Assembly: GCF_001945665.1 (NCBI RefSeq)
Contig: NZ_CP015793.1
Coordinates: forward strand, 1 to 45,035
Reading direction: 5' to 3'
Length of the DNA: 45,035 bases
DNA from: Borreliella mayonii
GTDB taxonomy: Bacteria; Spirochaetota; Spirochaetia; Borreliales; Borreliaceae
A program made the position numbers and the translations under genes. Below, piece by piece: positions 17,061-36,330 of the stretch (position 1 is its first letter; each line of letters opens with the position of its first letter). Under the pieces are notes generated by a model. It was given only the letters and a program-made list of their open reading frames with translations, was not told where the DNA came from and ran no database searches.

Positions 17061-17641
17061 ATTTTTCTGGAATTTATCGTCTAGTGCAGGATCATTGATG
17101 GCTTTGGGTTTTGATCAATAATTAAATTAGCATTCTTTTTTGAGCATTAATATTTGATATTTTTTGTTTATTAAATTTACAACTAAAAAAGAACAATACG
17201 AATAAAAATTTTAATACTATTGAGGAAATTCATCAATAATCCTGGGTTTTTGTTTTTTTAAGTTATCTTATTTAAATTAAGAATATAAAGACGAAAACAC
17301 ATTTGATATTCAAACCGAAGTTGTAATTGCTATTTTTAATAAATATAAAGAAAACAAACACACTAGCCAGTATTTACTAAGGTAGTATTAAAGGTAAAAG
17401 AGATTATTATATTCTTTGTGACTTTCTTTAAAAACAAAATCATCATTTTTTTGCTTTGCTATTTCATTTTGTTCAGTTTTAATAGCCTATATTTTTACAC
17501 CTACATCTTTATTACCGCTATAAAAATTTTATTTTAAAAAAAGATATTTATTAATTATAATAACAATATTATTAGAAAATAGTTAATAAAAATTTAATGT
17601 ATACTTTTAAACAAAGAATATATTAAATTAAGGAGTATAAA
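17061..17641. other. Spacer upstream of the 17642 lipoprotein
   Basis: Short broken coding scraps (for example FDIQTEVVIAIFNKYKENKH near 17300) but no gene. It ends with the AAGGAG ribosome site of the next gene. Confidence 0.4.
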
Positions 17642-18277: not shown

Positions 18278-18289
18278 AAATAAGATTTT

Positions 18290-18345
18290 GCATTTTAATA
18301 AAAAAGAAGCTCCTATTAATAGGAGCTTCTTTTTTATTAAAATGC
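18290..18345. terminator. 27-bp perfect hairpin terminator
   Basis: Arms 18290-18316 and 18319-18345 are perfect reverse complements with a two-base loop (core gaagctcctat / ataggagcttc), with T-runs on one side and A-runs on the other. It should work as an intrinsic terminator in both directions. Confidence 0.85.
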
Positions 18346-18348
18346 AAA

Positions 18349-20724: not shown

Positions 20725-21474
20725 TCACAATATACCTTTTAAGGCATTTTCGGCCTCTCTATAATAAATTTCTTTCAAAGAAGGCTCTAAAAGGTCATTT
20801 ATAAAAACTTTTATACTATTTGAAAAGTGAATTTTACCTTTTATATATTTACCATATTTTTTGTACAGCACATCCTCCACCTCCTTTAGGGTATTCCTAT
20901 TTTTAATAAATTGGTTTTCTATAATAGAAATATTATATTTTTTATTTTTAATGTTTTGAATATTATTAATGGTTTCCGTTAAAATAGAAAAGCTTTCTAT
21001 TGACCATCTTTCTACTTGAACTGGGATTATAATATGGTCTGTAACATTTAAAGCATTCTTTAAAAGGAAATTTCTACTAGGAGAAGTATCTATTATAATA
21101 TAATCAAAATCAAAACTTTTAGTGCTTTTATTTAATCTAAATTCTAAAATAATTTCTTTATAATCTATATCATCTGTGTTAAATTTTTCTAAAACAGGAT
21201 GAGAAGGAATTATAGAAATGTATTCATTAACTTTGTTTTCACATTTATCAAAATAGGCATTTCCCTTCAAAAATTCATAAATATTATGTTTTTTAATATT
21301 AGAAATATATTTATTAAAATAAGAGGTTAAAGAATTTTGTGGATCTAAATCAATTAATAAAACTTTTTTACCTAATTCTTTTAAGACATAAGAAAAAAGT
21401 ATAGAAAGTGAGCTTTTCCCGACCCCTCCTTTTAAGCTTGCAAGTGTAATTATAATTGGTTTTTTTTGATCCAT
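20725..21474 (-). CDS. parA: Plasmid partition ATPase ParA (PF-32)
   Basis: 249 residues, normal for Borrelia PF-32. Deviant Walker A KGGVGKSS at residues 15-22, A' motif LLIDLDPQNSLTSYF, Walker B YIIIDTSPSRN, and VQVERWSIESF. This ATPase separates plasmid copies and its variant decides plasmid compatibility. The start ATG lies inside the end of the PF-50 gene (25-base overlap) behind a GGAGGG ribosome site, pointing to translational coupling. It is the third gene of a PF-57/62, PF-50, PF-32 operon. All key motifs are intact, unlike the second locus. Confidence 0.95.
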   Translation of the reverse strand: MDQKKPIIITLASLKGGVGKSSLSILFSYVLKELGKKVLLIDLDPQNSLTSYFNKYISNIKKHNIYEFLKGNAYFDKCENKVNEYISIIPSHPVLEKFNTDDIDYKEIILEFRLNKSTKSFDFDYIIIDTSPSRNFLLKNALNVTDHIIIPVQVERWSIESFSILTETINNIQNIKNKKYNISIIENQFIKNRNTLKEVEDVLYKKYGKYIKGKIHFSNSIKVFINDLLEPSLKEIYYREAENALKGIL

Positions 21475-21992
21475 TTATTTATAATCCCTCCATCTTTTAC
21501 TTTTTTATCATAAAATTCATATACTTTTTTTTCCATTTTTTTTAAGTGTGATAAATTAAATTGATAATAATTAGTGTTTTCTTTATTTTTTCTTAGAAGT
21601 GTTCTCAAGGACTGAACATATGCTTTAATAGAGCCATTTTTAAAAGCAAATTCTATATAATAGAGTTTTTTTATTGCATAAGTTTTATTATTTTCTTTTT
21701 TAAGAAAAAAGGGTTTATCGAGTCTATCATGCCTATATTTTATTTCTAAGAACTTGTCGTCTTCTCTTAAAGGAAAAAGATTAAAAAAAAGAAAATATCC
21801 ATTATTGTTAAATTCTTGGAAAGTAAGTCTCAGTCTTTCCCCTTTGTTTGTAATTTTAAAACCAACCAGGTGTTTAAATATTTTTGTACAGTATATTTTT
21901 CTACTATTTATTTCTTCTATTTTATTAAATATAATTCTTTTTTCTATATTATTTTTTTCGTTTCTGAGTTTTTCAAGTAAACTACTGCTCAA
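21450..21992 (-). CDS. Plasmid partition/maintenance protein PF-50
   Basis: 180 residues. The family is found beside PF-32 on nearly every Borrelia plasmid. Visible blocks: KIYCTKIFKHLVGFKI, YFLFFNLFPLRED, KPFFLKKENNKTYAIKKLYY and AYVQSLRTLLRK, all shared with the copy at 34403-34993. The start is TTG and overlaps the PF-57/62 stop by 11 bases, with AAAGGGA upstream. The exact biochemical role is not established; it is required or helpful for stable maintenance in tested Borrelia plasmids. Confidence 0.9.
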   Translation of the reverse strand: MSSSLLEKLRNEKNNIEKRIIFNKIEEINSRKIYCTKIFKHLVGFKITNKGERLRLTFQEFNNNGYFLFFNLFPLREDDKFLEIKYRHDRLDKPFFLKKENNKTYAIKKLYYIEFAFKNGSIKAYVQSLRTLLRKNKENTNYYQFNLSHLKKMEKKVYEFYDKKVKDGGIINKWIKKNQL

Positions 21993-22902
21993 ATTTTAAT
22001 CCCTTTGTCAAAATGTTAGACAAAATATTATTAGCTATTATTCCAGCATGCCCCAAAAAGCTTGTTATTTTATTTGATTTCCATTTAGTAATATAATTAT
22101 CTTTAAATTTTCTTGCAAGAATGTAAAAATCGGTTTTATATGGCACGACTTTTCTCATAAAGTGTATTTTATGTTTATAAAGGTTTAGTTTGGATAAGAA
22201 AAATTCTTTAATATCTTTTACCTCATAATCATGTTTTAGATAATTTTTAAAATCTTTATAGTTTGATAGTTCATTTTTTAGCATTCTAATTGGTTTTTTA
22301 GTATTAAAAATTATTGATTTAATTCGTTTAAAGAAAGAGCTTTCTATAGAATTCTTGCCATTTATATTTATATATTTTTTATTATATACAGTGACATTTT
22401 TAATGATATTTTGAGGCTTAGAAGATTCTTTATTTTTTCTTAAAGTATCTTTTTCTTCCTTTATTTTTTTAATTAAGTCTGTTTTAGTGATGCTAAAATA
22501 TGCTTCAATCAATTTATGTGCAATAGGTGACACTTTATATATACAAAGCTTTCCTTTGAATTCTCCAAAGTTACTTGAAAATGTTAGTATTTTTTTTTCT
22601 AATGCTTTTAGCTTGACTAAAAATCTTAAATCTGGTCTTAGGGTATTAATTGTAGTTTCTTTTTTATTTTCTTTATGTATATTTGAGTTTAGTGCTCGAA
22701 GTATATATCCTTGATGATGATGATATAGAATTCCTTTTAGTTCATCAGAACTAAAAGGAATTCTATATATTGATACATTATATTTTTCCCCAAATTTTTT
22801 ATTTAAGTAAGCAATAACTGAATTTTTTTTAAGTTTGCAGTTTTTTGAAGGTGGTTTATTGGCATTAATTTGGTGATTATGATTAGATATGGCAGTTTTC
22901 AT
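21982..22902 (-). CDS. Plasmid replication protein PF-57/62 (Borrelia orfA family)
   Basis: 306 residues. N-terminal part with VIAYLNKKFGEKYNVSIYRI, HHQGYILRALNSNIHKE, then KGKLCIYKVSPIAHKLIEAY. The C-terminal half is rich in lysine and probably helical, with HKIHFMRKVVPYKTDFYILA. In Borrelia, PF-57/62 proteins are the best candidates for replication initiators. It is the first gene of the PF-57/62, PF-50, PF-32 operon; ATG preceded by AGGAGA. The divergent region to PF-49 holds multiple inverted repeats. The protein is full length and collinear with the 325-residue copy at 33433. Confidence 0.92.
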   Translation of the reverse strand: MKTAISNHNHQINANKPPSKNCKLKKNSVIAYLNKKFGEKYNVSIYRIPFSSDELKGILYHHHQGYILRALNSNIHKENKKETTINTLRPDLRFLVKLKALEKKILTFSSNFGEFKGKLCIYKVSPIAHKLIEAYFSITKTDLIKKIKEEKDTLRKNKESSKPQNIIKNVTVYNKKYININGKNSIESSFFKRIKSIIFNTKKPIRMLKNELSNYKDFKNYLKHDYEVKDIKEFFLSKLNLYKHKIHFMRKVVPYKTDFYILARKFKDNYITKWKSNKITSFLGHAGIIANNILSNILTKGLKFEQ

Positions 22903-23376
22903 TTTTTGTCTCCTAGTTTAATGTGTATTTAATTATTAATTAACATAAATTATAATATATAAAATATTTAATTTCAACCTCTGTTAAAATTAAATCTAAA
23001 AAATCATTTTTAAGAATATTTAAGCCAAGGGACTACAGTTTTTCTGTCAAAAAACTGTAGTTTTATATAAATAATTAGTATGAAACTTTTTAATAAATTT
23101 GATTAGAAATAGAATGACAAATAATATTCAAATTGTCATGAATCTAAAAAATATATTTTCTTGACCTGCTATTTTTAAATCAAAGAGCATAGAAATAGCG
23201 TCTTACATCGTTCAGAACTGAACGATGTAATTTATTGTTAATATTTATTTTTTACCAAAAAAATAAATATTAACACAAATTTTAATTTGTGTTAATATTT
23301 ATTCACAGATTGGCGGCATAAGATTTATAAATAGAAATGCGTGCTTTAAATCAAAAAATAAATATAGAAGGACAAA
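22903..23376. other. Putative plasmid origin: divergent region with nested inverted repeats
   Basis: This lies between the divergently read PF-57/62 and PF-49 genes. It contains, in order, a 12-bp repeat at 23032-23061, a 13-bp repeat at 23203-23230 (ttacatcgttcag / ctgaacgatgtaa), a 17-bp repeat at 23237-23274, and a 19-bp repeat at 23262-23303 that shares its left arm with the previous one. The core gttaatatttatt therefore occurs three times in alternating orientation. The 5' intergenic region of PF-57/62 is where minimal replicons of Borrelia plasmids have been placed. The same DNA must also hold the two divergent promoters. Confidence 0.65.
23237..23303. repeat. Overlapping 17-bp and 19-bp perfect inverted repeats
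   Basis: 23237-23253 pairs with 23258-23274 (4-base loop acca). 23262-23280 pairs with 23285-23303 (4-base loop ttta). The middle arm can pair with either side, so two exclusive hairpins are possible, a switch-like arrangement. Confidence 0.9.
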
Positions 23377-23976
23377 ATGGGGAAAAAAGAAAATAAAAAA
23401 GAAATGATTTTAAATGACAGATTTGAAGATTTCATTGACAAAAGTCAAGATTTAAATAATAATCAAGATGAAAATTTAATAATTTATAAAGATTTAAAAG
23501 ACCAGTTAAAGCTTAATTTAAAAGATGATATTGACAATAAAATTCAAAGAATGAAAATATTATATGAAATTAAACAAAAAGAACTTTATAAATACGATGG
23601 GTTTAAAAGCTTTGAACAATTTATAAAATCTTTTATAATTGCAAAAACTCAAGCTTATACATATTTAAAAGTTTATGAAAAGGTTTTAGAAGGTATTATT
23701 TCTATTGATAAAATTAAGGAAGTGGGTTTTAATGGCGTATATCATGCCATACAAAAACAAGAGCTATCAACAATAAATCAAGAAAATATGAATAAAAACA
23801 ACAAAAAAAATGCCCCAATTAGAATTTTAATAAAAGATAATGAATTATATGATTTTTGTAAAAAAGATATTAAAAGGGTCTATTTTATTTTAGAGGAGAT
23901 TTTTAAAAATAAAAAAGATATTTTATCGGAGATCATAATTAAATATGCTAATTCTAAAAAGAAAAGGAATAAATAA
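23377..23976 (+). CDS. Plasmid partition protein PF-49
   Basis: 199 residues. The family sits beside PF-32 on Borrelia plasmids and is often considered the ParB-like partner. Blocks: KDDIDNKIQRMKILYEIKQK, KYDGFKSFEQFIKSFIIAKT, QAYTYLKVYEKVLEGIISID (helix-turn-helix-like), KEVGFNGVYHAIQK, and a lysine-rich tail ending in NSKKKRNK. ATG behind AGAAGGA. It reads away from the rest of the cluster, as BBK24 does on lp36, with the putative origin between. A hairpin terminator follows 97 bases after the stop. A broken copy lies at 35744-36330. Confidence 0.9.
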   Translation: MGKKENKKEMILNDRFEDFIDKSQDLNNNQDENLIIYKDLKDQLKLNLKDDIDNKIQRMKILYEIKQKELYKYDGFKSFEQFIKSFIIAKTQAYTYLKVYEKVLEGIISIDKIKEVGFNGVYHAIQKQELSTINQENMNKNNKKNAPIRILIKDNELYDFCKKDIKRVYFILEEIFKNKKDILSEIIIKYANSKKKRNK

Positions 23977-25062: not shown

Positions 25063-28000
25063 ATGAAAACTAATGACATTGTAAAAACAAATGATCCAAA
25101 TATATCTCTTTATAAAAAACCATCAAAAGACTTTATAAAAAAGGAAAATATTAATAGTCTAAAATACTTTTTCATTTTTGTAAAAAATAAACTTTCTTCA
25201 ATAGATGATAATTCAACAGAAGCAAATACAGAGTCTTTGCTAAAGTATATATTTGAAGAACTAAATTATTCAGGAGAACAATAAAAAGCCGGGCAAATAG
25301 AAGGAGCTAAGTCTAGAGCAGATATACTGCTTTTTGAAAAAGATAAAGTAGCTTTTAATAATAAATTAAAAGAAGCTAAAAAAATAATAAACCTATTCCT
25401 GTCGAAGATATCTTGCTTATAACAGAAGTTAAGCGTTCAATATTTAGTTTTGACGCTAAAGATAAAGTAAAAGAAGCAGAAGATAAGCTATATAGATATC
25501 TAAATCAATATCAAAAACATTATGGGATACTTTCTAATGGAAAGGTATGAAGATTATATGACAAATCGAAAGTGCTTTATGGAGAAAAAAGACATATTGA
25601 ATTTAATTTTTCTAAAATTGAAGAAAAAGAAGAGTACAAAGAACAAGAATGGTTTGTTTTATTCATTTACCTTATAAGAAAAGAAAGATATCTAAAGACA
25701 AGCAATGTAATAGAGGTTAAAAAAAGAACAAATAGCCAAAGAAAAAGAGATAATTAAAAAAACCTTAAGAGAGATACTTTATGAGAGACCCGACGACTCT
25801 ATAGTATTTAAATTGCAAAAAATATATATAACAAAGAATTAAAACTATCAGGCAAAGAAATTGCTCAGCACATTTTAGCTAGCATACTTGAAGAATCAAT
25901 TATTTTTATTTTAAGAATATTTTTTATTGCATATATTGAAGATAACGATATATTTAAGAAAATATTAGAAGAAAATAAGCTGTACAGATCTTCCATATCT
26001 TTTGGGTATTTTTTTTATGATGAAAATACAAAAAAGAAATTAGGATATAAAAAAATAATAACAATTTTTAATTTACTTGATAAAGGAAGTGATGCAATAA
26101 AGTTTCCCGTATTTAATGGAGGGTTATTTTCAAAAGATAAGGTTAAATATTTATAATGAAAGTTTGCTAAGTATTAGTGAACTTGAAGAAATACCGATTA
26201 AAATACTTTTCTTTTGAAGAAAAAAATATTAAAGATGAAAAATTTGTAGAGTATTCAAAGTTAGATCCAAAAAGTTTTGGAAATCATACGAAACTCTACT
26301 TGAATATGACCTAAGAATTGCAGATACTACTGTTCATCGTATTATTGAAGATGGAGTTTATCTCATTCGTGCTGAAGAAGAGCTTGCAAACAAGCAGGTA
26401 AACAAAGTTGCTACATACTATAAAGGAAATATTTATCTTACATCTAGATAGCTGCTTGATAGAAAGAAAAGTGGAGCATATTACACACCAGATGACCTAA
26501 CTGATTTTATCGTCACATCGTCAATTGAAGAATAGCTCAAAACCAAGTCTCCCTTAGATATAAAAATCATTGATAATTCTTGTAGATCATGGCATTTCTT
26601 GATTTCTTGTCTAGATTACTTAACAGAAAAAGTATGGTATCAGCTAGATAAATTTGAAGATGTAAAAAAAAGAGCTTGATAAAGAATATAGAGTTATTAT
26701 CAAAGAAAGTGAAGAATATGATGTTCAAGATAGTATAAGTAAGGAATTAGTACTTAAAAGGATGTTGCTAAAGAAGTTATTTATGGCGTTGATATTAATC
26801 CTATTTCAGTTGAAATTACCATGCTAAGTTTATGGATTAATCCCTTTATTTTTGAAACACCACCAAGCTTTATTGAGCACCATATAAAAGTAGGAAATGC
26901 CTTACTGGGATATGCCAAGGACGAATTTTTTATATTGCAAAAAAGAAATTTTAAAGTGGATTTTCTTTGTTTAAAAAAAGAATTAAAGAAATTACAACTA
27001 TTTTAGAATATATCTATCAAAAAATTAAAGGTATTAATGATACTACTAAAGAAGATATAGAAAAATCTAAAAAGATATACAAAGAATATGAGGAAAGTGA
27101 AGATATAGGTAATTTAAGAACAATATTTTCTTTAATTAAACTTTATTCATTGTCTTTTTGATAAATCTTTAAATATAGAATTTAGTGATATTACAGCTGT
27201 AATTAGTTTAATTGAAGATATTTTGGGCAATAAAAAAACTTCTAGTGAAGATAAAGAAAAAATAGAAAAAATTAGAAAATTAAGTAGCTACTATAAATTT
27301 TTTCACTATGGAATTGAATTTCCATATATTCAGGAAGGATTTGATATTGTAATTGGAAATCCCCCATGGGAGAAAACTAAGTTTAATGAATCTGAATTTT
27401 TCTCAAAACATGTTCCTGGCTACAGAAAACTAAGCATAAAAGAACAAAATAAAATAAAGTAAGAAATACTCAGCAAAGACAATCATTTTTTAAATAATGA
27501 ATACAATAAAGGAAAAAACATTATAAGTTCTATTAACAAGATTTATAAAAGTAATTTTGCATATTTTACTAATGGTAGTGATCCAAATCTTTTTAGATAC
27601 TTTGTTACATTTAATTTAAAATTAATGAAAGAAAAGGGTAATTTAACTTATTTAGTTACTTTAGCTATTTGGAATGAATATAGTTCTAGAATACTAAGAA
27701 AACATATGTTTGCTAACTATAAACTTAATTATATTTATCAATTTGAAAATAAAAAAAGATTTGAAGATGTACATTCAAGTTTTAAATTTGCAATATTTCA
27801 ACTTAGCAATGCTAAACCTCCTACATCAAGCTTTAAAGCAAAATTTATGATTCAAAGTAGTGACAATATTATTAAAAAAATAACTAATGACTTAAAAGAC
27901 AATAAAGAGAATCCTTATAAAGGGATTGAATTAAATATAAATCAAATTAAAAAACTATCTCCTATTCAAGAATCAATAATAGAATTCAAAGACAATGAAG

Positions 28001-28850
28001 AATTTACTCTTATTAAGAAAATGTTTGGCCAATTTAGTACTCTTAGTATAAAATATATTGATTTTAAAAAAGGCTTAGATCCAAGCATTAAGAATCGTAA
28101 ATCTTTATTAAAAGAATATAATAATGAAAACTTTGTATTTCTTTATTCTGGAACCAATATTCATCAGTTTAATTCAAGATTTTTTAAAGATAAAGATACA
28201 AAAGAAAGTGCTAAATTACTATGGATAGATAAAGAGAATTTAGAAAAGGTATTGGCTAAAGATAATTAATATCAAACCAAAAGAGTATTCTATAGAACAA
28301 TTGCAAGAAATATAGATGAAAGAACCATGATTAGTACTTTATCTCCTGGAAATTGTTATTGTGTGAATTTAATGTATATAAATTATAGGAAAACACCAAT
28401 ATCACTTTATAAAAAATTATTTATTATATTTATTTTTAATTCATTTGCATTTGACTTTTTGTTAAGAAGATTTGTTGACTCAAATGTGCTAAAATCATGC
28501 CTTTATCAATGCCCAATGCTCCAACCCCAAGAAAAAGATATTTTAGCTAATCCACCATACTTAACTCTAGTAAAAATGCTTCCTTGCTAATAGCCAAAAA
28601 TGATCCCGAGAACTTTAAATATTTACTTTACTTAGAATATTTTGAGTTTAGCAAAGAAAAAGTTAATAAAATACTAAATCTAAATGCGGAAGATGAATTT
28701 TTTAAAGAAAAAGAAAATTAAAATGACTTTATTGTAGCGAATATTTATTCACTAGCCAAAGAAGATTTTAAGATTTTGCTTAACGACTTTGAGGTACTAA
28801 AAAATAAAAAAGGAGAAGACCATATTTTTGTCTTTAATAAAAAGATATGA
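25063..28850 (+). pseudogene. Type IIG-like restriction-modification enzyme pseudogene
   Basis: One ancestral gene of about 1,250 codons in many frames. N-terminus 25063: SLKYFFIFVKNKLSSID. Nuclease-like part GAKSRADILLF ... LLITEVKRSIFSFDAK (D...ExK). Methyltransferase motif I near 26570 is damaged: KIIDNSCRSWHFLISCLDYL where the family needs a CGSG-type glycine loop. Motif IV is intact near 27350: DIVIGNPPWEKTKFNESEF, the NPPW box of N6-adenine methylases. A target-recognition-like region follows (27625-28590), then NDPENFKYLLYLEYFEFSKE and KILNLNAEDEFFKE. I count more than ten stops or shifts. Borrelia plasmids carry related enzymes (BBE02, BBQ67, BBH09) that limit foreign DNA entry; this copy must be dead. 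Confidence 0.85.
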
Positions 28851-29439
28851 GAATTATTCAAGAACAAATAAACTTACTAAATCTTAACAATTCAAACCTA
28901 GTTTATTATTATAAAGAGATTTATATCTATTTGATGAAATATATATTTTTACTAAAAACATCACACTATAAAATTATGGGAAAGTTATTCTTGGTGAAGT
29001 GCTTTTTAAAGAAAGCAAGAGATAAGCTAAAAAACTTTTCAAAATTGAAGAAAATAATGTTTATAGATTTAAAAATGTAGAATTGTATTATGGTGAGTGT
29101 TTTTTAAAAAAGCTAAATACATTAGAAATAAAAAGTTTTTAGCCTACATAGAAAGCATATATTAATGATATTTTGAAATTCTTTTTATACTACACATTAA
29201 ACACTTTCCCTTATATATTTTATTAAAATATTATTTTCTATACTTTGAAGCTTGTTTTTAAAAATTTTATCAGGTGCAAAAAAATCAAACTTAAAATTAC
29301 CAAAACAATATTCAGTATGAATACTTTCTATTTTATATATGTATAGCCTTACATCTTTTTTAAAAGAAAATAAACTAATATTTGCTAAAAAATGAATAAT
29401 AACCTTAACATACAAAAATTAACTAATAAATCTTAAACA
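28851..29439. other. Mixed gene debris after the restriction-modification remnant
   Basis: The plus strand around 28970-29100 reads KIMGKLFLVKCFLKKARDKL and, in another frame, GKVILGEVLFKE and NNVYRFKNVELYYGECF. A related scrap is at 32400-32633. A 72-codon minus-strand frame (29197-29415) has no ribosome site or family match and I do not call it. Confidence 0.4.
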
Positions 29440-30580: not shown

Positions 30581-30610
30581 TTTTGATAAAAATATTGATT
30601 TTTATCAAAA
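30581..30610. promoter_or_regulatory. Perfect 13-bp palindrome in the promoter of the HSDR_N gene
   Basis: ttttgataaaaat / atttttatcaaaa with a 4-base spacer ends 30 bases before the start codon at 30641. A -10-like TATAAT lies at 30631-30636. A smaller repeat gttaat / attaac lies at 30558-30577. The position overlaps where RNA polymerase would bind, as expected for a repressor operator. Which protein binds is unknown. Confidence 0.5.
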
Positions 30611-30640
30611 TTTTTCAAATTTATTGCTAATATAATTTAT

Positions 30641-31792
30641 ATGTCAAATAAAGATAAAACTATAAATGTAAATTTTATAGAAAAAATAAAAGCTGTAAGT
30701 GTGAAAATACAAACTTATAAGGATAGCATTAAAAGTGAAGCTGAAACAAAACAATTTTTTATTAATCCATTTTTAGATGCAATGGGCTATTGTCACACTG
30801 ATCCTTCATTTGTTCAAGTTGAGGTTGCAATTAGTTTTGCTAAAAATGAAATAAAAGCTGACTATGTTCTTTGTTCTAAAGACAAAAAGCCCACTATTTT
30901 ACTAGAAGCCAAGCATTATAAAGAAAACCTTGAAAATCATTTTAGTCAATTATCAGGTTATTTTTATAATCTTCGTTCTAAATATGCAATTGAATTTGGT
31001 ATATTAACAAATGGTATAGAATATAGATTCTATATTGATTTAGATAAAGACAATTTACTAGACAAAGAGCCTTTTTTAATTATTAATTTAGAAAAATTAA
31101 CATCTAAAGATTTTGAATATCTTAAAAAGTTTTATAGAAATTCTTTAAATACTGAAGAAGTTAGATTATTTGCATTAGAAAAAAAATATACAGACAAACT
31201 TTTAGCTTATTTAAAAAAAGAAAGAAAAAATATAAGTAATGATTTTCTTGATTTTTTTAAAACTAAAATTGGCTTTAAAGAAACATATTCAAATGAAATA
31301 TGTAAAAATATTATTAAAAATACTTTTAACATGTTTGATGAAAAAAGCGATACATTGGTAAACAATACAAAAAATAATAAAAAATTTACTAAAGATAGTA
31401 TCAATAGTAACAATATTGAAACTGAAAATTTAAAAATCTTTGAAAAGCTAAATTTTAATATGAAATCAATATATCAAAACTTAGAAAGCTTTATTTTTGA
31501 TTTAAATCCTAATGAAATTAAAAAAGCTGAAACAAAGTGGTATACAGCATTTAAGGTGAATAATAGATGTTTTGTAGATTTTAGTTTTAAAGCAAATAAA
31601 ATAAATATTACTGTTACTCTAAATCAAATAACTTTAAAAGAAGGCTTTATTAGAGATGTTAGCAGTATTGGCAAGCTTGGTAATGGAAATATTCAGATTT
31701 TTTGCACAGGAAGTTCTAATATTAAAGAAATTAAAGACCTTATTAAGCAAAGTTATAATAATATTTTTTCAAAATATAGAAAAATAGATTAA
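30641..31792 (+). CDS. Stand-alone HSDR_N nuclease-domain protein with DUF5655 tail
   Basis: 383 residues, intact. Residues 30-160 match the N-terminal nuclease domain of type I restriction HsdR subunits: SEAETKQFFINPFLDAMGY, Asp74 in IKADYVLC, Glu89-x-Lys91 in ILLEAKHYKE, then HFSQLSGYF. The D-ExK set is complete. Residues 175-270 are a charged linker. Residues about 280-380 match DUF5655 (KWYTAFKVNNRCFVDF ... RDVSSIGKLGNGNIQI ... IKDLIKQSYNNIFSKY). There is no helicase, methylase or specificity gene nearby that is intact. The ATG has no Shine-Dalgarno sequence and a TATAAT ends only five bases before it, so the mRNA may be nearly leaderless. A DNA-acting or nucleic-acid-sensing defence role is plausible but inferred. 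Confidence 0.85.
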   Translation: MSNKDKTINVNFIEKIKAVSVKIQTYKDSIKSEAETKQFFINPFLDAMGYCHTDPSFVQVEVAISFAKNEIKADYVLCSKDKKPTILLEAKHYKENLENHFSQLSGYFYNLRSKYAIEFGILTNGIEYRFYIDLDKDNLLDKEPFLIINLEKLTSKDFEYLKKFYRNSLNTEEVRLFALEKKYTDKLLAYLKKERKNISNDFLDFFKTKIGFKETYSNEICKNIIKNTFNMFDEKSDTLVNNTKNNKKFTKDSINSNNIETENLKIFEKLNFNMKSIYQNLESFIFDLNPNEIKKAETKWYTAFKVNNRCFVDFSFKANKINITVTLNQITLKEGFIRDVSSIGKLGNGNIQIFCTGSSNIKEIKDLIKQSYNNIFSKYRKID

Positions 31793-31940: not shown

Positions 31941-31984
31941 AAACTTATTTGAATTTTTAGTAAACTAAAAATTCAAATAAGTTT
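31941..31984. terminator. 21-bp perfect hairpin downstream of the HSDR_N gene
   Basis: Arms 31941-31961 and 31964-31984 pair perfectly with a two-base loop (aaacttatttgaatttttag type). It lies about 150 bases after the stop and is a possible terminator. Confidence 0.7.
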
Positions 31985-32889: not shown

Positions 32890-33358
32890 AAAGAGCCCAT
32901 ATTTAGGGAACATATAGATAATCTTAAAAAACTTTAAAAGATGTAAAAACCGAACATTTTGATAAAACTAATTTAGAAAATCTACTTAATAACCTTAATA
33001 AAATTAATCAAACTTCAAGTATTAGTATTCAACATGAAGCAAAGCAAAGTAAAAAAGGGTTTGGATAACCCAATTACGTAGTTAAAATAAATGAAAGTGT
33101 GGCAGATTATATAAAATTAAGAAAATTGAACAAAGCCTATTTAAATTTGATCTTAAAAAACCAAAACTTGCTGTTAATGATGCTAAAATAAATAATGTTA
33201 TGAGTGTTTTTAGGATTTTTTTTAGCATTATACCTCAATAAATTTAAAAAACATAGAAAAACTTGCCAATCTTCCTTCATATAGAACAAGAACGCCAAAA
33301 GAATTAATAGAAGAAAACTTGGTATTAATTACATTATCTATAAATAATAAAAAATATT
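32890..33358 (+). pseudogene. Restriction-modification N-terminal fragment, second copy
   Basis: The plus strand in shifting frames reads TNLENLLNNLNKINQTSSIS, IQHEAKQSKKGFG, NYVVKINESVADY, then FDLKKPKLAVNDAKINNVM and YRTRTPKELIEENLVL. It parallels 961-1504 block by block (TNLENLLNKL, IQHEPRRSK, PDYVV.INESI, YRTRTLKELIEENL). Here the EVK block is also lost. Both copies end at the same point, which suggests one break event followed by duplication. Confidence 0.6.
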
Positions 33359-33432: not shown

Positions 33433-34410
33433 ATGGTATTAAATTTACTTAACTGCAAAACCAATACTAATAAGCCCAATAAACTACTTTCAAAAGACTC
33501 TAGACTTAAAAAAGTTATTTCAGTAATTAATTACTTAAATAAAAGTTTTGAAGAAAAATATAACATTTCAATACAGAGGATTCATTTTAATTCTGAAAAA
33601 CTAAAAGACCTTTATCCTCATCATCAAGGAGATATCCTTAGAGTTCTAAACTCAAATATAAATAAAGAAGGTTATAAACCAACCGTAATAAGAACTTTAA
33701 GAGAAGACTTAAGATTTTTAATTAACATAAAAGCAATTGAAAAAAGAATACTAACATTCTCAAATAACCTAGGAAAATTTAAAGGAAAACTATGTATATA
33801 TAAAGTATCACCTATTGCATATAAGTTAATAACTACTTATTTTAGTGGCCATAAGGTAGCCCTTTATAAAAAAGTAAAAGAAGGAAAAGACACTCTTAGT
33901 ACTCAAAATGTCACTGAAAATGTTACTGTATATATAACCCCTTATAATAATATATATAATAAGAATTCTATTAAAACTATTTTTAAAAAAAAATCTAATG
34001 CAGGAGAAATTAAAAATAAAAAATCCGCTATGGAAAAAAAAATGAAATTATCTAAAGAAATAACTAAAGAGATAAAAAATATAGTAAAAAATACTAAAAA
34101 TCCAGAAAAAACATATAAAAATACACTTTTTAATTATAAAGACTTCTTTAACTATTTATCATATGATTATAAAAAAGAAGATATTTTATCTTTCTTTTTA
34201 AGTAAACTTAAAGAATATAAAAATAAAATTCACTTTATGAGACAATATGCTCCTTATAAAACAGACTTCTACTTGCTTGTAGGAAAATTTAAAGATCTAT
34301 ACAATTCTAAATGGAAAACTAATAAAAAAACCAATTTCAGTGGACATGCAAAACATATAGCTAGCAATATTTTAAATAAAATTTTAAAAAAGGATTTAAA
34401 GTTTGAGTGA
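33433..34410 (+). CDS. PF-57/62 replication protein, second replicon
   Basis: 325 residues, open from ATG (behind GGAGA) to stop. Clearly related to 21982-22902: VINYLNKSFEEKYNISIQRI, HHQGDILRVLNSNINKEGYK, KFKGKLCIYKVSPIAYKLIT, and NKIHFMRQYAPYKTDFYLLV. The lysine-rich middle is longer and carries a KK-rich insertion around residues 185-215. It starts a PF-57/62, PF-50, PF-32 order like that of the first locus, but on the plus strand. Whether it still initiates replication is unknown; its partners PF-32 and PF-49 are broken. Confidence 0.88.
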   Translation: MVLNLLNCKTNTNKPNKLLSKDSRLKKVISVINYLNKSFEEKYNISIQRIHFNSEKLKDLYPHHQGDILRVLNSNINKEGYKPTVIRTLREDLRFLINIKAIEKRILTFSNNLGKFKGKLCIYKVSPIAYKLITTYFSGHKVALYKKVKEGKDTLSTQNVTENVTVYITPYNNIYNKNSIKTIFKKKSNAGEIKNKKSAMEKKMKLSKEITKEIKNIVKNTKNPEKTYKNTLFNYKDFFNYLSYDYKKEDILSFFLSKLKEYKNKIHFMRQYAPYKTDFYLLVGKFKDLYNSKWKTNKKTNFSGHAKHIASNILNKILKKDLKFE

Positions 34411-34993
34411 ATTACTAGAAAAACTAAAAGCAAGAAAAAAAGAAATAATAAATAAAAAAGAACTAGAATATAATGAAAACACAAACAAAGTAGCAAAAGA
34501 AAAAACTGCTTTTTCTAAAATTGAAGAAATAGATAATAAAAAAATATATTATACAAAAATCTTTAAACATTTGATAAAATTTAGAATTACCAGTAAAGAC
34601 AATAAGTTAAGTTTAACTTTTCAAAAGCTTAATAATAAAAAAAATTATTATTTATTTAATCTCTTTCCCCTAAAAGGGGATAATAAATTCCTAGGAATAA
34701 AATATGGATGGGACAAATTAGAAAAGCCCTTTTTTTTAAAAAAAGATAATAAATCTTATGTTATAAAAAAACTTTATTATTTAGAATTTAAATTTAGTAA
34801 AGGCTCTATTAAGTGTTATATTCAGTCTCTTAGAACGTTATTAAGAAAAAAAGACAAAGAAAGCACTAAATATTATAGGTTTAATTTAGAACATATAAAA
34901 AGAATGGAAAATACGGTATATAAATTTTATAGTAAAAAGCTAAAAAATACAGGAGTAATATATAAATGGATAGAAAAAAATCAAATATCATAA
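34403..34993 (+). CDS. PF-50 plasmid maintenance protein, second replicon
   Basis: 196 residues, TTG start overlapping the PF-57/62 stop by 8 bases, AAGGA upstream. Shares KIYYTKIFKHLIKFRI, YYLFNLFPLKGDNKFLGIKY, KPFFLKKDNKSYVIKKLYYL, CYIQSLRTLLRKK and a KWIEKNQ tail with the 21450-21992 gene. The frame is intact. The broken PF-32 start codon lies inside its last 28 bases, the same coupled arrangement as in the first locus. Confidence 0.87.
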   Translation: MSELLEKLKARKKEIINKKELEYNENTNKVAKEKTAFSKIEEIDNKKIYYTKIFKHLIKFRITSKDNKLSLTFQKLNNKKNYYLFNLFPLKGDNKFLGIKYGWDKLEKPFFLKKDNKSYVIKKLYYLEFKFSKGSIKCYIQSLRTLLRKKDKESTKYYRFNLEHIKRMENTVYKFYSKKLKNTGVIYKWIEKNQIS

Positions 34994-35699
34994 CAATAGC
35001 AAATCTTAAAAGAGGTGTGGTGTAAATAAAAGCATATTATCAATCTTATTTTCTTATGTATTAAAAGATTTGGTTAAAAAAGTTTTGCTCATTGATATGG
35101 ATTCGCAAAACGCTTTAGCTCCATATTTTAGAAAATATATTTTAATTTCTATAAAAACAACATTTATAATTTGTTAATAGGCAATTTTTATTTTGATCAA
35201 TATGTAAACAAAGTTAATGCCTATATTTTTATAATTCCGCATCACCTTTTTCCTGATGAATTTAATTATAAAAATATGGATAATGAGGAAAATTTATTGC
35301 GGTTTTGCTTAGATAAAAATGTTTTAAGTTATAATTTTAATTATATTTTGCTTGACAAATATCCTAGTTTTAGTTTAAAAGATGCATTAAATGCTACAAA
35401 TCACATTTTTATTCCAGTTTAGCTTGAAACATGGTCAATAAAAAGTTTATAAATATTGATACAAAAAATTATAGACAAAAGCTATAATTTTTCAATTATT
35501 GTAAATCAATTTATTAAAAATAGGAATATACTTAAGGAGGTTGAAGATGCCCTATATAGGCGATATAGTAATTATCTAAAAGCAAAATTCATTATTATAA
35601 TATCATAAAAGTTTTTATAATAAATCGTTTGGAGCCAGATTTAAAGAGCAAGTATTATAAAGAAGTAAGAATGCATTAAAAAATGTCTTAAGTTTATAA
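34966..35699 (+). pseudogene. PF-32 (parA) pseudogene, second replicon
   Basis: Starts MDRKKSNIITIANLKRGVV and stops. The Walker A loop KGGVGKSS seen in the intact copy is destroyed (KRGVV*). Later pieces are recognisable in other frames: VLLIDMDSQNALAPYFRKYI, then FNYILLDKYPSFSLKDALNA and TNHIFIPV, a stop, LETWSIKSL, IIVNQFIKNRNILKEVEDAL, and NALKNVLSL at the end. Walker B Asp survives, but with several stops and shifts no ParA can be made. In a normal replicon, loss of ParA would destabilise the plasmid, so this one must rely on the 20.7 kb locus. Confidence 0.9.
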
Positions 35700-35743
35700 C
35701 ATTTTTTAATATTCCCTGGGGGAAATTAAGTAGGGAGTTTGGA

Positions 35744-36330
35744 ATGAAAATAAAAGCTAAAAAAGATAAAGAAGAATTATTTAGCAATCGTTTTGGAAAT
35801 TATAACAAAGAGACAAGTTTAAATGATGATCAAGATAAAGAATTAGTAAATTATAATAATCTAAAATAGCAACTTAAATATAACCTAAAAGATGATATTA
35901 ATAATAAAATTCAAAGAATGAAAATATTATATGAAATTAAACAAAAAAATTATATAAATACGATGGTTTTTTCCGCTTTAATGATTTTATAAAATCTTTT
36001 GAAGTTGTAAAAAGTCAAGCTTATAGATATTTAAAAATTTATCAAAAAGCTCTAGAGGGTAAAGTAGTATCTATTGATAAAACAAAGGAGGTGGGCTTTA
36101 AAGTTGTGTTAAGAGATATAGAGAGTAAAAATTTTTTAAACGAAGACAACTATAGTGAATCTAAAGAGACCAATGAAAGTATTCTTATTAGAATTTTAGT
36201 AAAAAAAGAATTATGTGGTTTTTGTAAATAAGATACTAAAAGATTGTATTTTATTATTGAAAAAATTTATAAAGACAAGAAAAATATATTGTCTGAGCAT
36301 ATAATTAAATATGAAAAAAATAAAAAATAA
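35744..36330 (+). pseudogene. PF-49 pseudogene, second replicon
   Basis: ATG at 35744 behind GGGAG. MKIKAKKDKEELFSNRFGNY, then a stop after NNLK, then NLKDDINNKIQRMKILYEIK, a frameshift, FNDFIKSFEVVKSQAYRYLK, KALEGKVVSIDKTKEVGFKV, a stop near CGFCK, and IIKYEKNKK. About 45 bases around 35910 (from ataaaattcaaagaatgaaa) are identical to the intact copy near 23540, a hint of recent exchange. In this locus PF-49 follows PF-32 on the same strand instead of diverging. Confidence 0.85.

Follow-up and report, generated by a model that had tools for sequence, protein, structure and literature searches.

An open HSDR_N-DUF5655 gene on plasmid lp36 of Borreliella mayonii, a putative member of a phage nuclease family

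Introduction

Several described systems can be set beside the gene treated here. Temperate phages, among them Enterococcus phage EG-TP1, Streptococcus phage Javan316 and Klebsiella phage KpF5, carry proteins of the PHROGs family phrog_4225, labelled 'endonuclease'; the PADLOC collection holds a candidate, PDC-S18, whose C-terminal part is of the DUF5655 type; type I HsdR subunits and the type IIG enzymes DrdV and BpuSI contain nuclease domains that match HSDR_N; and Shedu (SduA) is a defence system built on a single nuclease gene. Here we describe an HSDR_N-DUF5655 gene on plasmid lp36 of Borreliella mayonii, within a stretch of 45035 bases (NZ_CP015793.1, positions 1 to 45,035) that we call the window. 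An earlier note, made from the letters of this DNA alone, had presented it as an intact, selected and tightly regulated single-gene system behind a palindromic operator. We found an open gene whose sequence places it squarely within a phage nuclease family of wide distribution. The reading that we favour, and to which we give about an even chance, is a phage-derived, stand-alone nuclease against incoming DNA, with the B. mayonii copy now in drift.

A 2025 comparison of 18 species tabulates type II restriction-modification genes, and in the available part of that source the B. mayonii rows name lp17, lp25 and lp28-4, not lp36 (PMC12811465). The phage phiBB-1 packages Borrelia plasmids, according to the accessible portion of a second paper (PMC11008901). 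If the nuclease reading is true, the gene would represent a Borrelia defence layer beyond the type II genes tabulated there, and such an extra layer would bear on DNA exchange by phiBB-1. Three further sources, as far as their text was accessible, contain nothing on this gene (PMC10319736, PMC5870499, PMC5243855).

Results and Discussion

The frame from ATG 30641 to the stop codon ending at 31792 has no internal stop (Table 1), as the earlier note had said, and the gene sequence is the same in both B. mayonii lp36 sequences, that of the window and that of isolate MN14-1539. The NCBI annotation begins the gene at GTG 30701, thereby losing the first 20 residues. This start is probably wrong: the other annotated intact copies, 16 in number, all begin with ATG and carry the same promoter motif shortly 5' of it, which makes ATG 30641 the better choice. 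Pfam assigned HSDR_N (E 1.1e-10; 42.1 bits against a cut-off of 25.1) and HSDR_N_2 (40.2 bits against 25) to the N-terminal part and confirmed the DUF5655 tail (E 1.2e-6, exceeding the cut-off). In PHROGs, residues 11-375 aligned to positions 3-354 of the 357 in phrog_4225 (E 1.4e-48), a match over the full length of the profile. The NCBIfam search of the protein gave no match. A sequence search of solved structures returned two weak HP0062-type matches only (E 0.15-0.16) with the single protein, and no match with a profile.

The predicted secondary structure fits a nuclease of this family. D74 falls in strand 72-78 and E89 in strand 84-90, with K91 adjoining, while Q103 and Y107, a pair that we take to be the 'QxxxY motif', lie in helix 97-112. 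The predicted fold of the C-terminal domain agrees with the MmcQ/YjbR double-wing type. The earlier note had called the nuclease signature complete; D74, E89 and K91 are indeed present, but a serine now replaces D65 and position 51 is a cysteine, so that the signature is complete for the classical residues only.

From these features a mechanism can be proposed. The HsdR-like PD-(D/E)XK domain (D74, E89-x-K91, Q103-xxx-Y107) would cut DNA, and the DUF5655 tail, with its YjbR/MotA-like fold, would bind DNA and help in target choice. Since no motor or specificity subunit is encoded with the gene, the protein would attack incoming DNA of phages or plasmids by itself and would most probably recognise its target through base modification or structure, in a type IV-like manner. 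A type I system was considered and rejected, as the 383 residues contain no helicase domain and no HsdR motor, HsdM or HsdS was found among the 29 annotated features of an incomplete gene table. The earlier picture of a single-gene, nuclease-type protein in a defence-like context is supported.

Many bacteria, as well as temperate phages, have relatives of the gene. Enterococcus phage EG-TP1 and Streptococcus phage Javan316 carry it between repressor and integrase; it comes after the prophage repressor in Klebsiella phage KpF5, and has unnamed neighbours in Lacticaseibacillus phage P7.1. We collected 160 loci (L027-L186). The match was covered by an open frame in 153 of them, and removal of copies at 70% identity left 88; the context count used the 84 with at least two upstream genes, Borreliella contig L027 included. 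A repressor-like helix-turn-helix (HTH) gene, drawn from a broad set of 151 open reading frames (ORFs) iterated from three phage seeds, was among the three same-strand upstream genes at 19 of 33 viral loci, against a background of 12%. An integrase was nearby at 9/33 viral loci (background 6%) and 10/51 genome loci (background 10%). Among the immediate upstream neighbours, 63 of 64 scanned (L027 dropped), Pfam found HTH_3 in 13, Peptidase_S24 in 5 and Peptidase_M78 in 3; a home-made metalloprotease search found 1 ORF only and was uninformative. Genes placed behind a phage repressor are typically expressed in the lysogen, and they often protect it.

Relatives in two Helicobacter genomes (L049, L053) align over query residues 10-373 at 30-31% identity, and the full-length architecture therefore seems to exist outside Borrelia. 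An HsdR N-terminal protein has been noted in phage-resistant Campylobacter, where the available part of the source gives it an unclear role and no test (PMC8713573).

Within Borrelia and Borreliella, protein-level matches were found in 47 plasmid records (6 and 41, respectively). Our intact set numbers 18, namely 17 translated loci with one open frame, the window's record counted, and the Borreliella genome contig L027; some copies are near-identical to one another, e.g., L002/L003 and L011/L012. The set covers B. mayonii, valaisiana, kurtenbachii, carolinensis, garinii, bissettiae, afzelii, burgdorferi, maritima, sinica, turicatae and yangtzensis. Five further loci (L016, L017, L018, L021, L022) were judged decayed by split matches and short or missing annotated frames. 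Outside the window, a B. burgdorferi protein (P0026; the longest contig listed is 910 kb) has the HSDR_N part fused to a ParA-type AAA_31 domain, a fusion that may be the product of an end rearrangement.

The intact copies also share a promoter-like element. TTGnTAATAT stands 2-11 nucleotides (nt) before the ATG in all 18, perfect in 11, with one mismatch in 4 and with two in 3 (L014 and two B. turicatae copies); the mayonii motif is perfect. The pattern was read from the family, so that part of its fit is built in, and the weight lies on its constant position. Four Shine-Dalgarno-like words were sought before the ATG and none was found in 18/18 intact copies. For background we used 71 other ATG frames, taken mechanically at a length of at least 120 amino acids: 3 had at most one mismatch to TTGnTAATAT, one of them the decayed family member L018, and 29 had a Shine-Dalgarno-like word. 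The earlier note was thus right that no Shine-Dalgarno site precedes the gene and that a promoter-like element lies close to the ATG. The TATAAT that it named, at 30631-30636, overlaps the element common to relatives and ends four bases before the ATG, not five. DNA similarity to the window starts 30-32 nt before the ATG in 8/21 other loci, which makes the shared block approximately the length of a core promoter; it starts at 50-60 nt in 6/21, at 8 nt in 3 B. turicatae loci, and farther out or inside the gene in 4/21. Transcription would begin on the ATG or right beside it, and the arrangement is most naturally taken to predict a leaderless mRNA. Such a transcript would not be exotic in the genus, since leaderless transcripts are stated to occur at high frequency in B. 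burgdorferi in the available text of PMC10618245.

A codon model covering 12 of the 18 copies, with two starting values used in the fit, gave an overall omega of 0.22, and omega on the valaisiana branch was 0.26, clearly below 1 (likelihood-ratio test, LRT, 14.6 against omega = 1). The pairwise Nei-Gojobori value between mayonii and valaisiana was 0.42. Between these two copies we counted one 3-nt insertion or deletion (indel) in the 1152-nt frame and 10 indels in 615 aligned flanking nt, about 140 nt of the upstream flank being coding on the other strand in valaisiana. The mayonii branch is approximately 73 substitutions long (0.0637 per site), and in a neutral trial under an assumed AT-biased mutation scheme 0.65% of frames were stop-free after 68 substitutions. 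Given the few indels in the frame compared with its flanks and these low neutral odds of an open frame, we infer that the mayonii frame was kept open for most of its history, with weak amino-acid constraint now.

Several observations weigh against a functional nuclease, in B. mayonii or in the family at large. On the mayonii branch omega was 0.63 (LRT 4.58 against one ratio), and omega = 1 was not rejected (LRT only 0.40). Polarised mayonii changes were 20 non-synonymous to 6 synonymous, where neutrality predicts 4.6 to 1, a count that favours conserved sites. Position 65 is aspartate in 87/87 non-redundant relatives outside Borrelia and serine in mayonii, and position 51, D in 83/87 and N in 4/87 of them, is cysteine in mayonii. 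Coverage of at least 80% of the query at a single place was reached in only 20/47 matching plasmid records, and an intact gene was confirmed in 17. The repressor-like HTH context appears in only 27% of genome loci (14/51; background 6%), and no family recurs among the downstream neighbours in the 25 of 59 families that were displayed (67 of 81 listed neighbours were scanned; the 14 omitted, L027 among them, were picked by eye and were for the most part short). The match to PDC-S18 is C-terminal only, residues 243-377 on positions 189-325 of 365, and does not extend over the whole model. A PADLOC scan of 8 relatives gave 3 with PDC-S18 (C-terminal), 2 with only weak type IIG matches and 3 with no model, two of these from phages. 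We know of no activity, binding or phage assay of this protein, no functional test of its family came to light, and we found no paper naming DUF5655 or PDC-S18, which does not mean that none is in print.

The selection data and the lost residues could mean that a once-useful defence gene is starting to decay, the mayonii copy being functionless and open by chance or recency. Loss of both D65 and D51 and the mayonii omega, above that of the rest, agree with this, as does the broken copy at the corresponding place in B. burgdorferi B31 lp38. Yet a frame without a frameshift beside such indel-rich flanks, the rarity of stop-free frames in the neutral trials and the perfect mayonii promoter motif all speak against it, and the valaisiana sister copy, also without D65, is clearly constrained. 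We consider outright decay somewhat unlikely, although the mayonii copy is probably losing function while its frame is still open. The earlier word 'selected' suits the family, which is under purifying selection, but is not borne out for the mayonii branch, which is statistically indistinguishable from neutral.

The presence of D65 is a feature observed in the relatives collected here, not a published criterion, and mayonii lacks it. Among Borrelia the residue is D in 13/16 rows, G in two valaisiana rows (valaisiana lp28-3) and S in mayonii. A mayonii-like stretch is also found in B. turdi (P0003), and because of this the changes at positions 65 and 51 probably predate B. mayonii, as far as the sequences tell. 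A quite improbable extension of the nuclease reading would make the mayonii-valaisiana-turdi clade a repurposed branch of the phage immunity nuclease, with D65 lost, valaisiana constrained and the leaderless promoter kept; it might serve as a DNA-binding or altered-specificity partner of plasmid type IIG enzymes, guarding plasmid sets against phiBB-1-packaged DNA.

The operator proposed in the earlier note fared worse. What had been called a perfect 13-bp palindrome does have perfect 13-nt arms but is an inverted repeat with a 4-nt loop (Table 1). It extends into the expected -35 region and is more than local chance would give, with 0.55% of 4000 first-order Markov sequences, built on the 240 nt in front of the gene, doing as well; folded as single-stranded DNA, it reaches -9.7 kcal/mol (z -5.4). 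Together with a C-terminal domain of predicted DNA-binding type, this would be compatible with a protein that represses its own gene through the repeat. However, 16 other intact copies (all but L027) were searched over 150 nt upstream, and none had a perfect repeat with arms of at least 10 nt; a palindrome not conserved among homologues is a result that the earlier note itself had named as refuting its idea. A 13-nt block of this region in mayonii is missing from B. valaisiana; the aligner puts the block from 30594 on, an ambiguous placement. Finally, the window contains 19 perfect inverted repeats with arms of at least 13 nt and loops of up to 12 nt, against an expectation of 0.3. In this setting the repeat is nothing unusual, 18 others having equal or longer arms. 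We therefore rejected the operator, and with it the tight regulation; self-repression is highly improbable. The repeat resembles a recent accident at this locus more than a conserved switch, one arm having perhaps arisen through an inverted local duplication in the mayonii lineage, as the block has the size of one arm. The case illustrates how a lineage-specific inverted repeat can mimic an operator when a single sequence is read alone.

Two other inverted repeats in the window may be mentioned. That at 18287-18348 has 31-nt perfect arms and no loop, and is the longest of 24 with arms of at least 12 nt. The other lies 3' of the gene and coincides with the only difference between the window and lp36 of B. 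mayonii MN14-1539 (NZ_CP015808.1), AA here and TT there at 31962-31963. The difference falls exactly on the central dinucleotide, as if a hairpin loop had flipped. Table 3 of the genome paper, in its available part, gives AA for MN14-1420 and TT for MN14-1539 at this site (PMC5193363), which makes it very probable that the window is lp36 of isolate MN14-1420.

Table 1. Coordinates of the gene, its domains and nearby features in the window.
Feature	Position	Strand	Remarks
HSDR_N-DUF5655 gene	30641..31792	+	383 amino acids; likely true start ATG 30641
N-terminal PD-(D/E)XK nuclease-type domain	30644..31135	+	about residues 2-165: E33, D74, E89, K91, Q103, Y107
DUF5655 domain	31439..31759	+	Pfam match residues 267-373; YjbR/YdhG-like fold, putative DNA binding
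Extended -10-like element TTGnTAATAT	30624..30633	+	7 nt before ATG; predicted transcription start at or next to ATG (leaderless)
Inverted repeat, not conserved	30581..30610	.	two perfect 13-nt arms, 4-nt loop
Inverted repeat, 21-nt arms, 3' of gene	31941..31984	.	isolate MN14-1539 has TT for the central AA
Decayed type IIG restriction-modification gene, BBE02 kin	25063..28875	+	1766 nt before nuclease gene
Fragments of BBQ67-type (ISP) restriction-modification gene	32946..33339	+	downstream of nuclease gene

The plasmid company of the gene was described in the earlier note as lacking any intact restriction-modification system. This is right in cis, as no intact restriction-modification gene is among the plasmid's 29 annotated features (an incomplete table), but a type IIG gene, of a kind often found near the nuclease gene, sits upstream as a wreck. 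A type IIG (BBE02-type) gene or remnant lies within 4 kb of 12/18 intact copies. In 8 of them it precedes the nuclease gene on the same strand, at a distance of 146-395 nt for seven and of 1766 nt for the window. The type IIG product has 1274-1278 amino acids when intact, with an Eco57I methylase domain seen in L010, and the nearby frame is unbroken in valaisiana lp36, afzelii PKo lp28-4 and sinica lp17. This proximity, and the type IIG genes on lp28-4 and lp25 of isolate MN14-1539, which each match in one unbroken piece and could act in trans, would suit an accessory nuclease of the type IIG cassette, in which the methylase marks self and the mark blocks or guides a second cutting activity.

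The link is one-sided, however, with the nuclease gene present at a coverage of at least 80% in 6 of the best 60 type IIG records listed, and neither Borrelia restriction-modification family has a relative at any of 87 non-Borrelia loci (tblastn 1e-5). In addition, 4/5 decayed copies have BBQ67-type (ISP) genes or remains downstream instead, 71-1592 nt away, a family without a BLASTP match to type IIG at 1e-10, and neither family was seen in the fetched stretch of B. turicatae, B. valaisiana lp28-3, B. garinii and one B. carolinensis copy. An accessory role is hence unlikely, and because the link is one-sided we take the two genes to move together in plasmid defence cassettes without forming an obligate pair. 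On the favoured reading of a stand-alone nuclease, the Borrelia gene would travel with plasmid restriction cassettes, and in B. mayonii, where the linked type IIG gene has decayed, the nuclease gene would itself now be drifting.

The plasmid itself appears composite. From approximately 30.5 to 36.5 kb the window aligns to B. burgdorferi lp38 in two pieces with an identity of about 83%, and two sets of plasmid partition genes are present (20725-23976 and 33433-36231, the second apparently incomplete); on account of both, lp36 here looks like a fusion plasmid. More BBQ67-type fragments are scattered at 927-1527 and 17290-17488. On B. turicatae lp24 the nuclease gene lies 4.3 kb from a tape-measure protein gene.

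Comparison with Known Systems

Taken as a whole, the observations of the earlier note were confirmed in part and its interpretation was supported in part. Interest in the gene would be raised by an enzyme assay of an intact relative; because relatives occur in temperate phages, such an assay would assign a function to an uncharacterised DUF5655 fusion.

Shedu, a single-gene nuclease defence, has a different additional domain and was not among the Pfam or PADLOC matches of the Borrelia protein. The nuclease domains of type I HsdR and of DrdV and BpuSI share both the fold and the HSDR_N profile with it, whereas the Borrelia protein is free-standing, with no helicase motor, methylase or specificity part found. 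With PDC-S18, whose S presumably stands for 'single gene', it shares the DUF5655-type C-terminal part (E 2.1e-18). The temperate-phage family phrog_4225 differs in that Pfam does not call the C-terminal part DUF5655 in most of the non-Borrelia relatives listed, and the Borrelia genes differ from it in having their own promoter motif and in standing amid genes of plasmids and of restriction-modification systems. Nevertheless, the match to this family spans the full length of the profile and includes the same HSDR_N domain, and relatives have retained the catalytic residues and lie behind repressor-like genes more often than background genes do.
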